A model generated the notes under the pieces. The model saw only the letters and a list, made by a program, of their open reading frames with translations, was not told the origin of the DNA and made no database searches. Source: Nitrospira sp. (lineage in GTDB: Bacteria; Nitrospirota; Nitrospiria; Nitrospirales; Nitrospiraceae). Taken from it: 64,000 nt of DNA. How positions within the stretch are numbered: the stretch's first letter is position 1; each line of letters opens with the position of its first letter. Both the position numbers and the translations under genes were made by a program. Shown here piece after piece: positions 16,864 through 23,397 of this stretch. The stretch spans positions 434,001-498,000 of the forward strand of contig JANDJI010000003.1 of the NCBI GenBank assembly GCA_024331125.1, in the 5' to 3' direction.

Positions 16864-18087
16864 TCAGCGCTTCAGCTTGATCTCCGTTGTCGTGTTTCGT
16901 TCCGTCCTCCGACCGGCGTAATAGATGCGGCAGGCCTCCTCCATCACGCTTCTGAGAGGCAGTCCGGTGCGGTCGGCGACGGCCTTGCAGTCGCGATACT
17001 CGGGAGCCGCCTTCTCCGTCCCATCGGCCATTGTGGCGACCTTCATGCGGACCGTGCCTCCGGCGACCTTCATCGACACGAGACGCCGGGGGAGCACCCG
17101 CCTGGATAGTTCTTGCACGCGCACGCCGAGCGTGGTCGTCTCCTTGAACAACACATCGAGAATCGCCTCGCTCCGCTCCGGCGCGGCCAGGCAAGAGAGA
17201 ATCACGCCGGGCCTGCTTTGCTTCATGATGGCCGGGATCTGCGCGACATCCAAAGCGCCGGCTTGAAACAGGCGGTCCATGACGTGTTCGTAGGCCTGCG
17301 GGGCCAGGTCGTCGAGGTTCGTCTCAATCTGAACCACACGGTCCATCGCCCGGTTGCCGCTGGCTATCGGTTCGGAAAGGAACACGCGCAAGACGTTCGG
17401 CCAATTCTCCGGATCGTGATCGCCGGCGCCGCACCCGACCGCCGCGATTTTCATCGTCGGAGTCGAACCGAAATCCGATACGAGGGTTCGCAGCAGCGCC
17501 ATGCCGGTGGGGGTGGCGAGTTCGCAACGCGGCCCCTCGGAATAGACGGGAATCCCTTTCGCCAGAATCGCCACGGTCGGCCCGGGCACCGGCAACAGGC
17601 CGTGGGACGTCGGCACCGTTCCGCTCCCCACGTTGACGGCGGAGGCCGTGGCGTCGGTGACGCCCAGGAGATGGCAACCCAGCACGCTGCCCACCACGTC
17701 GATCAACGAATCGATGACTCCCACTTCATGAAACCGGACCTTGCGGCCGGCTGTGCGATGGGCCGTTCCCTCCGCCTCGGCCAATCGATCGAACACATCA
17801 AGGCTCTGTTGTTTGACGGCGGGCGGCAGGACGCCGGCGGTTACGATCCGGCGGATGCGAGGAAGCGAAAGGGGCCGCTCGAATCCCCGTCGGACGATGA
17901 CGTCGACCTTCGTGGCATCCAACGATCCCCGACGCACGGTTTGCTTGCGCAGGCGGTATCCGTTCAACTTCAGGCCTTTGAGTCCGTTCACCAATGTGGT
18001 CCAAGGCAGTCCGGCGTCGACGAGCGCGCCCAGCATCATGTCGCCGCTGACGCCGGAAAAACAGTCGAAATGCAGATGGCGTCCCAC
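16864..18087 (-). CDS. larC: nickel-pincer cofactor biosynthesis protein LarC
   Basis: LarC is the CTP-dependent nickel insertase that completes the nickel-pincer nucleotide cofactor used by lactate racemase LarA and relatives. The 407-residue single reading frame starts VGRHLHFDCFSGVSGDM, the family N-terminus, and continues through both the N-terminal (LarC1) and C-terminal (LarC2) parts (NLDDLAPQAYEHVMD near residue 265). In Lactiplantibacillus plantarum these parts are joined by ribosomal frameshifting; here they are fused in one frame. The GTG start at 18087 has AGGAG five bases upstream; the frame is open further up but that stretch lacks coding character. Confidence 0.92.
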   Translation of the reverse strand: MGRHLHFDCFSGVSGDMMLGALVDAGLPWTTLVNGLKGLKLNGYRLRKQTVRRGSLDATKVDVIVRRGFERPLSLPRIRRIVTAGVLPPAVKQQSLDVFDRLAEAEGTAHRTAGRKVRFHEVGVIDSLIDVVGSVLGCHLLGVTDATASAVNVGSGTVPTSHGLLPVPGPTVAILAKGIPVYSEGPRCELATPTGMALLRTLVSDFGSTPTMKIAAVGCGAGDHDPENWPNVLRVFLSEPIASGNRAMDRVVQIETNLDDLAPQAYEHVMDRLFQAGALDVAQIPAIMKQSRPGVILSCLAAPERSEAILDVLFKETTTLGVRVQELSRRVLPRRLVSMKVAGGTVRMKVATMADGTEKAAPEYRDCKAVADRTGLPLRSVMEEACRIYYAGRRTERNTTTEIKLKR

Positions 18088-18235
18088 GCGTCTCCTCTTC
18101 GCGAAATGGCCGATCATCTTACCCAAGGGAACGGCGCACGGCAATTCGTTTCCGTCCTCTCGTTGACAGCCTCCCGTCGCTGTGTTATCCGAAACGACAC
18201 GATCGCGCGATGTCATCGGAGATCTTGCTCGCCTC

Positions 18236-18829
18236 ATGAAGACCGAAAACGCACGACCGTTCACCACGCGCATCAGACGGTTCACGTCCCCGCGCCACAA
18301 GTGTCCGGAATTCCATGCGTCTCCGCCGCGGGCAGTGTTGTCATGGACGGCGGCGCTGTGCCTCTGTCTTGCCGTCTTCGTGTCGATCGACGGTGAAGCT
18401 CGAACCAAACCCGATCGCGTTCCGCGACCGGAACCGGAGCTCAAGATCGTCGATCTGAAAATGGACCCCCTTCCGTTTGAACCGGGGAACGGGCCCTTGC
18501 AAATCATGGTGACCGTGCAGCTCCCCAAGGAGTTGGATGAGGCGTTTATTCTGGAAGTGACGTCATTGATCAGTTCGCCGTCCAAAACGTCGCTACGCTT
18601 TCTGACCCACCGACAGCCGGTTGAGATTCCACAAGGAGAAGAAGGTCAAGCGGAGCGGCCGAGACTGTCCGTCGAACTCCTCTGGGACGGGCAGGACCAC
18701 CGTAAACAACAAGCCGCGGCGGGCATCTATTCTTACGAAGTCCGGACAAAGTTGCTTGCCGACGGTGAAAAGGGCCCGCGCACCGTCATGGTGGCATGGC
18801 CCAAGCGGGGCACATTGGAAGTCAAATAA
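18236..18829 (+). CDS. exported protein with FlgD-like Ig fold
   Basis: A 197-residue secreted or periplasmic protein lying on the plus strand between larC and larB. A hydrophobic segment (about residues 33-52, RAVLSWTAALCLCLAVFVSI) preceded by a basic N-region is the signal peptide or anchor. The rest is one beta-rich domain; LLWDGQDHRKQQAAAGIYSYEV resembles the WDG(...)PAGIYxY strand-turn of FlgD-type Ig domains, split here by a short insertion. The ATG at 18236 is used; an earlier one at 18182 is possible. The function is unknown, and its position interrupts the lar genes. Confidence 0.65.
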   Translation: MKTENARPFTTRIRRFTSPRHKCPEFHASPPRAVLSWTAALCLCLAVFVSIDGEARTKPDRVPRPEPELKIVDLKMDPLPFEPGNGPLQIMVTVQLPKELDEAFILEVTSLISSPSKTSLRFLTHRQPVEIPQGEEGQAERPRLSVELLWDGQDHRKQQAAAGIYSYEVRTKLLADGEKGPRTVMVAWPKRGTLEVK

Positions 18830-18886: not shown

Positions 18887-19660
18887 CTATGCGCTCGCTT
18901 TTGTTCCGTTCTTCAGTCCCAGGGTATTAATCCGGTGGGCCAGGCAGCCCGCCCCAAAGCCGTTGTCGATGTTCATGACCCCGACGCCGGCTGCGCAGGA
19001 GTTGAGCATCGTGAGCAACGCCGACAGCCCGCCGAAACTCGCTCCATAGCCGCGACTGGTGGGGACCGCGATCACCGGGCAACTCACCAAGCCGCCCACG
19101 ACGCTCGGCAAGACTCCGTCCATGCCGGCCACGACGACGATCACCCTGGCGTCAAAGAGCCGTTCTTTTCTGTCCAGCAGCCGGTGAAGGCCGGCGACCC
19201 CCACGTCGTACAGCCGGTCCACCCGGCTCCCCATGACTTCCGCCGTAACCCGGGCTTCCTCCGCCACCGGGATATCGGCGGTGCCGGCGGTGATCACAAG
19301 GACGTGGCCGCGTTTTGTCCAGGGGCGTGGCGGAACGGCAACGACGCGGGCATCGGGGTAATATCGAGCCAGAGGGACGAGCCTTCGAATGGCGCGGCCC
19401 GTGGATGGTTCAGCCCGCGTGGCAAGGAAAGGGCCGCCATGTTTCACGAGCGATCGTGTAAGGGCAAGAATCTGGGCGAGCGTCTTGCCTTCGCACAGCA
19501 CCACCTCGGGGAACCCCTGACGCAACGAACGGTGATGGTCGGGCGAGGCGAAGCCCAGGTTCTCGAACGGCAGGGATCGCAGCCGTTGAAGCGCCTGCTC
19601 GATCGTCACCCGTCCTTGACGGATCTGCCGGAGGAGTCGCTCAAGTTGTTCCGGACTCAT
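18887..19660 (-). CDS. larB: nickel-pincer cofactor biosynthesis protein LarB
   Basis: LarB carboxylates nicotinic acid adenine dinucleotide and hydrolyses the phosphoanhydride, the first step of nickel-pincer nucleotide synthesis. The 257-residue protein has an N-terminal helical segment (EQLERLLRQI...) and a C-terminal AIR-carboxylase (PurE-like) domain with ITAGTADIPVAEEA near residue 125, YDVGVAGLHRLL near 155, and GMDGVLPSVVGGL near 185. The ATG overlaps the gpsA stop as ATGA, so it is translationally coupled. No larA or larE is visible in the window. Confidence 0.93.
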   Translation of the reverse strand: MSPEQLERLLRQIRQGRVTIEQALQRLRSLPFENLGFASPDHHRSLRQGFPEVVLCEGKTLAQILALTRSLVKHGGPFLATRAEPSTGRAIRRLVPLARYYPDARVVAVPPRPWTKRGHVLVITAGTADIPVAEEARVTAEVMGSRVDRLYDVGVAGLHRLLDRKERLFDARVIVVVAGMDGVLPSVVGGLVSCPVIAVPTSRGYGASFGGLSALLTMLNSCAAGVGVMNIDNGFGAGCLAHRINTLGLKNGTKASA

Positions 19661-20676
19661 GCGGAGGCTTTTTCCATTTTGGCGTCGCGTTCCATCAGGT
19701 CGCTCACGGCCTTTCGGCAGGGCTTGCCTTCGAACAACACGGCGTTGATCTCTTGCGTAATGGGCATCTCCACGCCGTGTCGCCGAGCCAGTTGCAGAGC
19801 CGCGCGGGCGGTCCGGACCCCTTCGGCGACGGCGTGCATGGTGCCCAGAACCGTTTCGAGCGGTTCGCCTTTCCCGATGCGCATGCCGACCGTATGGTTC
19901 CGGCTCAGCGCGCCGGTGCAGGTCAGCACGAGGTCGCCCACGCCGGACAGGCCGTAGAAAGTGCGGGGATCGGCTCCCATGGCCGCGCCCAATCGAACGA
20001 TCTCCGCCAGTCCTCTCGTGATGAGCGCCGCGCGCGCGTTGAGCCCCAGCTCCAGGCCGTCCACGATGCCGGCCGCCAGAGCGATGACGTTTTTCAACGC
20101 CCCGCCCAACTGGACGCCGATCACGTCGAGATCGGCGTAGACGCGAAAGGTCGGCGTCATCAAGATCTGTTGGAATCGCCGGACAAGCCGGTCGTCCGAA
20201 CCGGCAAGACAAACCGCCGTGGGCCGTCCGGCGCTCAACTCGCCGGCAAAACTGGGTCCGGAAAGGACCATCAGGGATTGATGCATGGATGGAGGCAAGA
20301 TTTCTTCCATCACCTGGGTCATAAGCTTCCCGGTGTCCTCTTCAAGACCCTTGGTGGCGTTGATCAAAGGAATCGGACGGCTCAGGCAGGGAGCCAACCG
20401 ATTCAGAACCGCCCGCGCCACGTGAGAGGGCGTGACGAAGAGCAGGGCTTCACAGCCTTCCACGGCATCCGGGAGAGACGACGTGGCGGTGAGGGCGGAG
20501 GGAAGCGAAACGCCTTGCAGAAAAACCGGATTCTCGTGAAACGAGTTGATCGACCGAGTCACCTCTTGCTCATAAGCCCAGAGGCGAACGATCAACCCTT
20601 TCTCGGCCAGCAATTTGGCGAGAGCCGTCCCCCATGCCCCCGCTCCGATGACGGCTATGCTGGTGATCGGTCGCAT
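19657..20676 (-). CDS. gpsA: glycerol-3-phosphate dehydrogenase [NAD(P)+]
   Basis: GpsA reduces dihydroxyacetone phosphate to sn-glycerol-3-phosphate for phospholipid synthesis. The 339-residue protein has the Rossmann start IAVIGAGAWGTALAKLLA, a conserved NATKGLEEDTG near residue 108, the catalytic GGALKNVIALAAGI (Lys near residue 190) and the C-terminal substrate domain with LSGVGDLVLTC. A near-perfect sigma-70 promoter (20761-20790) lies 85 bp upstream, so this gene heads the gpsA-larB transcript. Confidence 0.96.
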   Translation of the reverse strand: MRPITSIAVIGAGAWGTALAKLLAEKGLIVRLWAYEQEVTRSINSFHENPVFLQGVSLPSALTATSSLPDAVEGCEALLFVTPSHVARAVLNRLAPCLSRPIPLINATKGLEEDTGKLMTQVMEEILPPSMHQSLMVLSGPSFAGELSAGRPTAVCLAGSDDRLVRRFQQILMTPTFRVYADLDVIGVQLGGALKNVIALAAGIVDGLELGLNARAALITRGLAEIVRLGAAMGADPRTFYGLSGVGDLVLTCTGALSRNHTVGMRIGKGEPLETVLGTMHAVAEGVRTARAALQLARRHGVEMPITQEINAVLFEGKPCRKAVSDLMERDAKMEKASA

Positions 20677-20790: not shown

Positions 20791-20886
20791 TGAAACGGGC
20801 GGCTGCCTCTCGCAAATCGCACCCGATGCGTGTAGCCTACTCGTGGTCATCCAGATGACAGAGCAACGCCATTGAGAGGATTGGTC

Positions 20887-21243
20887 GTGCAAACGTGCCC
20901 GACGTGTCACCGCTCCCAGCCTGAAATCCATCGCTTCTGCGTTGCCTGCGGGAGCCGGCTCGGAAGAGACGCTCGTCCCGAACCTGCCTCGCGTTCAGAC
21001 GGCCGTGAGCCGGGACAGTTGAATATCCACGTGCTCTATGGAATGGTCGCGGCGCTGGTGCTTGCGTTGCTGTTCCCTCCCTGGGAGACACCGCCCGATC
21101 AGCCGCCGGAGTTCCTGGGCATGCACTTTCTTCTCTCTCCTCCGACACCGGAATCCGTGGTGAGCCGCATGTTGCTCACGATCGAGCTGGTCACCATCGC
21201 GATCGCCGGTCTCTATGGGTCGTTCCTGTTTCGAACAAAGTAG
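20887..21243 (+). CDS. zinc-ribbon membrane protein, 118 aa
   Basis: The N-terminus has paired knuckles CPTC (residue 4) and CVAC (near 19), a double-zinc-ribbon type module, followed by a linker and two hydrophobic segments (about residues 47-63, LYGMVAALVLALLFPPW, and 95-113). It would sit in the inner membrane with the ribbon in the cytoplasm. GTG at 20887 has AGAGGAT upstream; an in-frame TTG at 20872 is less likely. Divergent from gpsA. I do not recognise a family with known function. Confidence 0.7.
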   Translation: MQTCPTCHRSQPEIHRFCVACGSRLGRDARPEPASRSDGREPGQLNIHVLYGMVAALVLALLFPPWETPPDQPPEFLGMHFLLSPPTPESVVSRMLLTIELVTIAIAGLYGSFLFRTK

Positions 21244-21321: not shown

Positions 21322-22125
21322 TCACTCGTCCAACTTTAACGTGAGACACTTGGCCGATCCCCCTGATTTCATGAACTCATCGAGCGGCACGGCGTGGATG
21401 CGATAGCCTCGCTCATGGAGCATCCGTTCGGTCGTGGGGCAACCGGCGGGCAGAACCACGTGGTTGTCGATACAGACGGCGTTGCAGGCGAATCGCAGCG
21501 CATCCTGCTCGGGGACTACGAGCCGCTCGGCCGGTGGGATTCGCTCGGCAATGGCGGTTTGGCCGTAACGATCGAACGCGGAAGGAAAATACAACAGCTC
21601 GCCTCCGCTCAAGGGGCAGAAGCAGGTATCCAGATGATAGAAGCGGCCGTCCACCAGTTCGAGCGGGATGATTTCCCGATGGAACCATTCGCTCAGGATC
21701 GGGAATACGCGGATATCCGATCGTTGCCGATAGCCGCCGAACCAATAGTCCGGAAAACCCAGGAGGTCTCCCGCTCCTTCGAAGAACAGGCCCGGCTCCA
21801 ACGCCAGAATCTTGTAGCCGTGGTCGAGAAACCACTGTTCGAAGCAGGCTTCCTCACGCCGTCGCTCCGGATGCCGAAACCGGCTGACTACCGCCGTCTT
21901 GCCGACCACGACGCCGGCGTTGGCCGTGAAGACCAAATCGGGGAGGCCGGGCACGGGTGTCAGCCGTTCGAGCGTCACACCGACGTCCCGTTCGAATACC
22001 GCCATCAAGCTGTTCCATTGGAAGATGGCCCGTTCATGATCCACCTGGTTATTCAGTCGCATCCACGGGTTGATTTCGTATTCGATCCCGAAAAAATCAG
22101 GCGGGCAGACAAGGAGGCGGGTCAT
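21322..22125 (-). CDS. arginine dihydrolase-like amidinotransferase-superfamily enzyme (ArgZ-like)
   Basis: A 267-residue guanidine-modifying enzyme of the DDAH/amidinotransferase fold. It has FTANAG at residues 66-71 (Asn69), FYHLDTCFCPL with His164, and a C-terminal GGSAKCLTL with the nucleophile candidate Cys260. The Asn of TAN plus the His and Cys are the layout described for the cyanobacterial arginine dihydrolase ArgZ/AgrE, which turns arginine into ornithine, CO2 and two ammonia. The start ATG overlaps the stop of the ornithine-cyclodeaminase-like gene (ATGA), so the two act in sequence. A plain DDAH or arginine deiminase activity is the main alternative. Confidence 0.82.
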   Translation of the reverse strand: MTRLLVCPPDFFGIEYEINPWMRLNNQVDHERAIFQWNSLMAVFERDVGVTLERLTPVPGLPDLVFTANAGVVVGKTAVVSRFRHPERRREEACFEQWFLDHGYKILALEPGLFFEGAGDLLGFPDYWFGGYRQRSDIRVFPILSEWFHREIIPLELVDGRFYHLDTCFCPLSGGELLYFPSAFDRYGQTAIAERIPPAERLVVPEQDALRFACNAVCIDNHVVLPAGCPTTERMLHERGYRIHAVPLDEFMKSGGSAKCLTLKLDE

Positions 22126-23366
22126 GCCGGCCTTCCCAGCAATCTGGCCAACTCAGAGAGAAACGATGCCGCGTCCATCACCAGGCCGACGGCTTGAAAA
22201 CTCCCGCGGTCCGCGAGCTTGGTCGGCACGGAGGGATTGATGTCCGCGCAGACGGTCGGGACCGTCGCCGGCAGCAGGTTGCCCGTGGCGACGGCGTGCA
22301 GCGTGGAGGCCACCAGCAACGCGAGCTTCACGCCGTCAATGGCGGCGCGCATGGCCCGTTGCGCTTGAACAGAGTCGGTGATGACCCCGGGCAGGGGGCC
22401 GTCGTCGCGGATGGTGCCGGCCATGACGACCGGGACGTTCTTCCGGACACAGGCGGCCATGATGCCGTTTTTCACGACGCCGGAGGCCACGGCCCGCTCG
22501 ATGCTGCCGATCGCGCGAATTCGATTGATCGTGCGCAAGTGATGTTCATGGCCGTGAGGGACCGTGCGGCCGGCCGTGAGTCCGTAGCCCAAGGATGTGC
22601 CGTACAGGTCCGCTTCCATGTCGTGGGCCGCCAGGGCGTTGCCGCAAAACAAGACGTGGATGAATTCTTCCTCGATCAGCCAGGTCAGGGCGTCCCGCCC
22701 TCCGGCGTGGATGATGGCCGGTCCTCCCGCCAGCAAAACCCGGCAGGCGGCGCCCTCCCGCCTGTGTTGCTCCCGGAGCCGGCGCATTCTGGATGCGATG
22801 TCGGCGATCACGTGGCCGTGCGGCCGCTCCGCCGACACGTGGGATTCCATGAAGCCGAAGACGTCCCGCTCGCGCGGTCGCGCCAGGGGAATCACCCGCA
22901 CGCCCTCGCGGCCGGTGACAATCAGCTCTCCCCGCCGAACCTCGCCCATGGGAACGGCTCGCGCGGTCGCCCGTTCTTGATCCACCGCAATGCCGACGTC
23001 CATCTCAATGGGCTCGACGTCGATCCACCGGCCGTTGAGTCTGATTTGAGTCGGCAGATGGGTCGTGGCGTAGAAATCCTCGGGAAAAATCCCGTCAGCC
23101 GGTGCCGGTTCCAATCGGCAGTCCGCTTCGCGCTCGACGGATGCGCCGTGCGGCTGGATCGATTTAAGGATGTCATTCAGGAGCGTATGGGAGGAAGCCC
23201 GGATGGTGATGCGGGCGCGAGAGGGCTCTTCCCGCGTTTTGCCGATGTGAACTGCCTCCAAGTCGAAGTCACCACCCATCATGAGGATGAGATCCAACAC
23301 CTTGGCGAGCAGCAGCGAGTCGATGATGTGTCCGCTCAAGACGACGGTTTCTTGATGAATGTTCAT
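22122..23366 (-). CDS. archaeal-type ornithine cyclodeaminase (LOR/SDH domain, TIGR00300)
   Basis: A 414-residue protein equivalent to the C-terminal half of cyanobacterial AgrE and to the archaeal-type ornithine cyclodeaminase, which converts ornithine to proline and ammonia using bound NAD. The N-terminal beta domain (VVLSGHIIDSLLLAKVLDLI) and the nucleotide-binding part, with AGGPAIIHAGG near residue 213 and FCGNALAAHDMEADLYGTSL near 240, are landmarks of TIGR00300. ATG at 23366 has GGGAGAA upstream, better than the ATG at 23378. It is translationally coupled to the ArgZ-like gene. Confidence 0.85.
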   Translation of the reverse strand: MNIHQETVVLSGHIIDSLLLAKVLDLILMMGGDFDLEAVHIGKTREEPSRARITIRASSHTLLNDILKSIQPHGASVEREADCRLEPAPADGIFPEDFYATTHLPTQIRLNGRWIDVEPIEMDVGIAVDQERATARAVPMGEVRRGELIVTGREGVRVIPLARPRERDVFGFMESHVSAERPHGHVIADIASRMRRLREQHRREGAACRVLLAGGPAIIHAGGRDALTWLIEEEFIHVLFCGNALAAHDMEADLYGTSLGYGLTAGRTVPHGHEHHLRTINRIRAIGSIERAVASGVVKNGIMAACVRKNVPVVMAGTIRDDGPLPGVITDSVQAQRAMRAAIDGVKLALLVASTLHAVATGNLLPATVPTVCADINPSVPTKLADRGSFQAVGLVMDAASFLSELARLLGRPA

Positions 23367-23397
23367 CGGTTCTCCCATAAGAAGACCGGCCTTTGTG

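Follow-up and report, generated by a model that had tools for sequence, protein, structure and literature searches.

An archaeal-type ornithine cyclodeaminase paired with a predicted arginine dihydrolase in comammox-type Nitrospira, and comparative evidence for its probable dependence on the nickel-pincer nucleotide

Do two overlapping genes of Nitrospira specify a route from arginine to proline, and which cofactor would its second step use? The question is raised by a 64-kb stretch of Nitrospira DNA, hereafter the window, whose relevant features are collected in Table 1. A sequence-only reading of this DNA proposed that two minus-strand genes, overlapping by ATGA, encode an ornithine cyclodeaminase (OCD) and, after it, an arginine dihydrolase resembling ArgZ. 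Both open reading frames are indeed present in this order; in the overlap, read from 22125 to 22122, the TGA is the stop codon of OCD and the ATG the start codon of the ArgZ-like gene. An in-frame ATG at 23378, upstream of the start listed for OCD, is a possible alternative. Among the loci read, 49 start sites of ArgZ-like genes were found, and 39 of them have the same tetranucleotide; the overlap may serve to keep the amounts of the two proteins balanced. Searches of the 64-kb window for Rfam RNAs and tRNAs found none.

Table 1. Position, strand and basis of the features of the OCD-argZ locus and its lar neighbourhood (window coordinates)
Feature	Position	Strand	Basis or remark
OCD, archaeal / ArgZ-C-terminal type (TIGR00300), 414 aa	22122..23366	minus	ATG at 23366
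ArgZ-like arginine dihydrolase (predicted), stand-alone, 267 aa	21322..22125	minus	
ATGA overlap joining the OCD and ArgZ-like genes	22122..22125	minus	sequence
Small zinc-ribbon/membrane ORF between argZ and gpsA	20872..21243	plus	PF12773, weak; position conserved across the family
Sigma-70-like promoter match, TTGACA-18-TATAAT, 12/12	20790-20761	minus	~85 bases before gpsA
gpsA (glycerol-3-phosphate dehydrogenase), between argZ and larB	19657..20676	minus	PF07479/PF01210
larB, NPN biosynthesis (pyridinium carboxylase)	18887..19660	minus	NF033503, 284.7 bits > 175
ORF for a 215-aa protein, between larB and larC	18182-18829	plus	position conserved across the family
larC, nickel insertion protein of NPN biosynthesis	16864..18117	minus	PF01969, 372.7 bits > 22.1; single ORF, start inferred

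The identity of OCD as an archaeal-type ornithine cyclodeaminase, as first read from the sequence, is borne out by the TIGR00300 profile, against which the whole protein scored 465.9 bits (E 1e-139), above the curated cut-off of 410.8 bits. Profile searches resolved the domains PF04455, PF21571 and PF21570, and the protein carries the invariant columns of a 37-sequence TIGR00300 alignment that spans many phyla. Its relatives in the PDB are the C-terminal half of AgrE/ArgZ and 3c2q, the family member from Methanococcus maripaludis, to which it is 44% identical over 330 aligned residues. The predicted model of OCD (pLDDT 88.7) matched 3c2q with a Z score of 41.5 and a deviation of 2.3 Å over 330 residues, and residues ~167-414 of the model display a deoxyhypusine-synthase-like fold (Z about 17-18, 3.1-4.0 Å over ~220 residues). 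Unlike the archaeal enzyme, the window OCD belongs to a bacterium that also has proC, and its gene is joined to that of an arginine dihydrolase. At two loci in other genomes, L124 (G197:C22) and L130 (G189:C1), OCD carries an apparent frameshift while larB and larC are intact, reflecting either a sequencing error or a young pseudogene.

The second protein matched the arginine dihydrolase profile NF052232 at 293.5 bits (E 1.2e-87), below the curated cut-off of 450 bits, a score that is reached in none of the 236 Nitrospirota genomes that form the main sample. It displays 46% identity to Synechocystis ArgZ over 266 residues, and its nearest match in the PDB is the dihydrolase domain of Sll1336 (ArgZ; E 4.6e-79), with Alr4995 (AgrE) also matched. 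As sequence comparisons, the family matches of both window proteins lie far beyond chance. Asn19, Asn69, His164 and Cys260 align with four catalytic residues of ArgZ, which we take to be Asn22, Asn71, His168 and Cys264 in the native numbering; Asn69, His164 and Cys260 were the candidate residues picked out by the sequence-only reading, and the alignment upholds them. In the PDB constructs 6juz and 6jv1 it is precisely the columns of Asn71 and Cys264 that are altered, and the four residues are kept in every OCD-linked ArgZ examined.

The superfamily to which the ArgZ-like protein belongs also contains the Mtb-type dimethylargininases (NF045659), and it is conceivable that the window protein is a dimethylargininase, or an arginine deiminase, that releases citrulline and lies beside OCD without sharing a pathway with it. 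Consistent with such a function, the protein matches NF045659 at 231.6 bits, has the INPW, Asn, His and Cys columns in common with this group, INPW and Asn being seen in actinobacterial proteins annotated as dimethylargininase, and is about 36-40% identical to the actinobacterial members. The NF045659 score, however, misses the cut-off of 300 bits and is lower than that for arginine dihydrolase, while more distant DDAH-like proteins carry Asp at the column of Asn69. In addition, ornithine, but not citrulline, could feed the neighbouring OCD. In a phylogenetic tree, the check that the sequence-only reading had proposed for a placement with DDAH, the protein stands apart from classical DDAH and groups with other OCD-linked ArgZ proteins; the same tree gives it no fixed placement relative to the cyanobacterial ArgZ/AgrE proteins or the Mtb-type dimethylargininases. 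The argument that Asn69 speaks against every dimethylargininase was dropped because the Mtb-type proteins also have Asn. A citrulline-forming enzyme is, in our judgement, very unlikely, and the protein is treated below as a predicted arginine dihydrolase. ArgZ-like genes also occur without OCD, at L122 in a deep-branching member of the class (G131) and at L135 in a genome of family f17 (G017).

The two domains, with the same catalytic residues, are known from AgrE of Anabaena (Alr4995) and ArgZ of Synechocystis (Sll1336). In these cyanobacterial proteins the domains are fused, whereas the window pair comprises two overlapping genes with OCD first, and its ArgZ-like part, 46% identical to ArgZ, is under the NCBIfam dihydrolase cut-off. 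The bifunctional family NF052231 is defined by a single chain with the dihydrolase at the N-terminus, the cyclodeaminase at the C-terminus and a score above 1025; the two window proteins, encoded separately and in reverse order, score 292 and 376.3 bits and fall outside it. The sequence-only reading saw in this layout an unusual split and reversed version of the cyanobacterial enzyme, a view that the distribution of the pair does not support. OCD occurs in 69 of the 236 Nitrospirota genomes and is accompanied by an ArgZ-like gene in all 69; in the loci read, ArgZ is the next gene after OCD and in most cases has an ATGA-type start. A scan of GTDB found OCD in Planctomycetota, Armatimonadota, Chloroflexota, Actinobacteria, methanogens, Nitrospinota and others, with ArgZ directly downstream in 26 of the 80 loci returned and upstream in none, some loci being cut by contig ends; many Planctomycetota also have the pair. 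Separate genes in the order OCD to ArgZ are thus a widespread and common arrangement. The gene pair alone is ordinary, and the more interesting features are the link to a nickel cofactor and the co-erosion described below.

Judged by their sequences, the two proteins probably convert arginine to proline and ammonia. In ArgZ chemistry the cysteine attacks the guanidinium carbon and ammonia departs; a second hydrolysis frees CO2 and ammonia, and ornithine is then released. The ArgZ-like protein would likewise hydrolyse the guanidino group twice, via a covalent intermediate on Cys260 and with the participation of His164 and Asn69, to yield ornithine, two molecules of NH3 and CO2. OCD would turn ornithine into proline with the loss of a third ammonia, in a redox-neutral reaction in which a hydride is transferred and returned. 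We infer that the C-alpha hydride would pass to the cofactor, the delta-amine would close the ring with loss of ammonia, and the return of the hydride would generate L-proline, a scheme modelled on what is known of OCD chemistry and on the hidden redox step of LarA, the lactate racemase of the LarABCE system. PutA would finally convert proline to glutamate. Among the class members tested, which are related genomes, PutA was present in all 26 with OCD compared with 4 of the 15 without it; given this relatedness, a Fisher value for the counts is descriptive only. The pattern agrees with the AgrE-PutA route of catabolism in cyanobacteria, in which arginine is converted to proline and then, via PutA, to glutamate (PMC8262935). 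Homology, residues, the conserved adjacency of the genes and the co-occurrence of PutA together give good support to the two-step route predicted by the sequence-only reading.

The supply of proline is unlikely to be the main role of OCD. All 41 class genomes tested contain proC, irrespective of whether OCD is present, indicating that OCD is not needed for this purpose; the combination of an endogenous proC with an OCD joined to an arginine dihydrolase makes catabolic use the likelier function. The genome from which the window derives encodes amoA (PF02461; G000:C4:367044-367751, outside the window), which identifies the source organism as a comammox-type Nitrospira. The organism is thus a nitrifier, a proviso on which the sequence-only reading had made the special interest of the route depend, and ammonia released from arginine could be oxidised by it.

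The sequence-only reading overlooked a possible cofactor for the cyclodeaminase, the nickel-pincer nucleotide (NPN), together with the adjoining genes larB and larC. NCBIfam (2026) names the TIGR00300 family NPN dependent, and in 52 of the 56 OCD-containing genomes of the window's family larB follows OCD on the same strand at a distance of 2.4-5.4 kb; of the other four, two are interrupted by a contig break, one has a longer spacing and one has no listed position. The position of larC is likewise conserved across the loci of relatives. The intervening gpsA, whose stop codon is overlapped as ATGA by the start of larB, is probably a conserved neighbour outside the function of the pair. The opposite-strand ORF between argZ and gpsA is present in seven of the eight relatives checked, and the perfect promoter-like site before gpsA suggests that gpsA-larB forms its own transcription unit. 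In combination, the conserved ORF and the promoter-like site indicate that OCD-argZ and gpsA-larB are probably transcribed separately, and a single OCD-argZ-gpsA-larB-larC operon was dropped because these elements divide the genes. Outside the window's family OCD and larB are unlinked. The restriction of larB/larC linkage to one family and the apparently separate transcription of gpsA-larB were both counted as points against an NPN link.

OCD without LarB was found in none of the 236 Nitrospirota genomes, LarB being present in all 69 that contain OCD. LarE is encoded by 68 of the 69, the sole exception being the source genome itself, in whose assembly (88.9% complete) larE was not found. The F-type atpB orthologue, the usual neighbour of larE, is missing from the same assembly, so the absence of larE is probably technical and reflects an assembly gap. 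In a wider scan of other groups LarB scored above cut-off in 48 of 50 OCD-containing genomes; a 49th match (G242, 54.7 bits) is weak, probably represents PurE and was excluded. The archaeal controls M. jannaschii and H. volcanii both encode OCD (TIGR00300), LarB and LarE without LarA.

A search of the source genome for LarA, the established user of NPN, likewise gave no match. The window locus thus resembles the LarABCE system in having LarB and LarC encoded near OCD, with LarE in every other OCD-containing Nitrospirota genome sampled, but it differs in that LarA is lacking and in that the proposed client is a cyclodeaminase rather than a hydroxyacid racemase. A 2021 review noted larBCE in H. 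volcanii and the possibility of an unknown enzyme with the NPN cofactor (PMC8305020), and as late as 2024 the NPN users of genomes without LarA were described as 'yet-to-be-identified' and non-LarA clients were predicted to differ in sequence and fold (PMC11796402). LarA is not among the fold matches of the OCD model, an observation that is uninformative either way. No paper showing OCD to be an NPN user emerged from searches of the open literature on the nickel-pincer cofactor in connection with cyclodeaminase or ornithine.

The same two-step route could in principle run with NAD+ as the hydride carrier of OCD, the lar genes then being unrelated neighbours that serve another enzyme. The title of PDB entry 6lrg names AgrE in combination with ornithine and NAD+, the deoxyhypusine-synthase-like fold seen in the C-terminal half of OCD is one whose members bind NAD, and some reduced genomes retain lar genes without OCD. 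NPN is itself a nicotinate-derived nucleotide. The presence of NAD+ in the crystal is therefore compatible with NPN dependence, and would be unsurprising in a protein made without LarB, LarC and LarE. A role for NAD+ is in conflict with the name given to the family by NCBIfam, with the near-invariant presence of LarB in OCD-containing genomes within and beyond Nitrospirota, and with the concerted erosion of four genes at separate sites in one genome. We consider NAD+ an unlikely carrier, and infer that the hydride in the window OCD would most likely be held by NPN made by LarB, LarE and LarC.

The eroded genome, G208, is a Nitrospira assembly of 140 contigs that is about 95% complete. Family searches detected ArgZ but neither OCD, LarB nor LarE, and inspection of the corresponding loci, L123 (G208:C54:30000-44000) and L149 (G208:C46:38500-58000), revealed remnants of the missing genes. 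OCD retains 21 codons before a stop at codon 22; a large part of the gene is deleted, and the C-terminal piece that remains is degraded, with changes at invariant residues. In larB the first ~25 codons are fused to the last few, and larC retains a few codons at its beginning and the last ~60. All that is left of larE, on the other contig, is its last 25 codons, flanked by an intact M16 peptidase gene on one side and atpF on the other. The genes for TruD, ArgZ, GpsA, the M16 peptidases, AtpF and AtpB, and the opposite-strand ORFs between the remnants, are intact. It is difficult to see why four separate deletions should strike OCD together with precisely the three NPN genes if these functions were not tied, and, as comparative evidence, the sequence of G208 argues strongly for a requirement of OCD for NPN. 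The genomes compared are related and G208 is fragmented and incomplete, so co-erosion and co-occurrence might be ascribed to shared ancestry or to assembly error. The deletions, however, are internal, lie at four sites on two contigs and are separated by intact genes, among them the conserved opposite-strand ORF between larB and larC, and LarB also accompanies OCD in genomes of unrelated phyla. Shared ancestry or assembly error is accordingly given only a slight probability, and a functional dependence of OCD on NPN is the preferred interpretation.

The rule that connects the two functions is one-way: in the Nitrospirota genomes sampled OCD does not occur without LarB, but LarB occurs without OCD. 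Three reduced genomes of the window's family (G105, G161 and G165, at L119, L120 and L121) have gpsA-larB-larC in place and keep LarE while lacking OCD, ArgZ, LarA and PutA, and in these organisms NPN must serve something else. In total, 105 of the 236 Nitrospirota genomes encode LarB and LarE but lack both OCD and LarA, and another user of NPN therefore probably exists. These genomes contain either a third type of NPN user or a divergent LarA that escapes the Lar_N profile; for a third, unrecognised user in Nitrospirota besides LarA and OCD we see an even chance. NF052526, a variant OCD family, was tried as an explanation for the genomes with LarB and no OCD, but matched the same 69 genomes and does not account for the others.

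The explanation as a whole, a two-step catabolic route for arginine in which NPN is the likely hydride carrier of OCD, is one that we hold with good confidence. That OCD uses NPN is already listed by NCBIfam; G208 and the one-way rule provide independent genetic evidence. If the explanation is true, arginine recycling in comammox-type Nitrospira would be nickel-dependent, and each arginine would yield three molecules of ammonia, which is also the energy substrate of these organisms.
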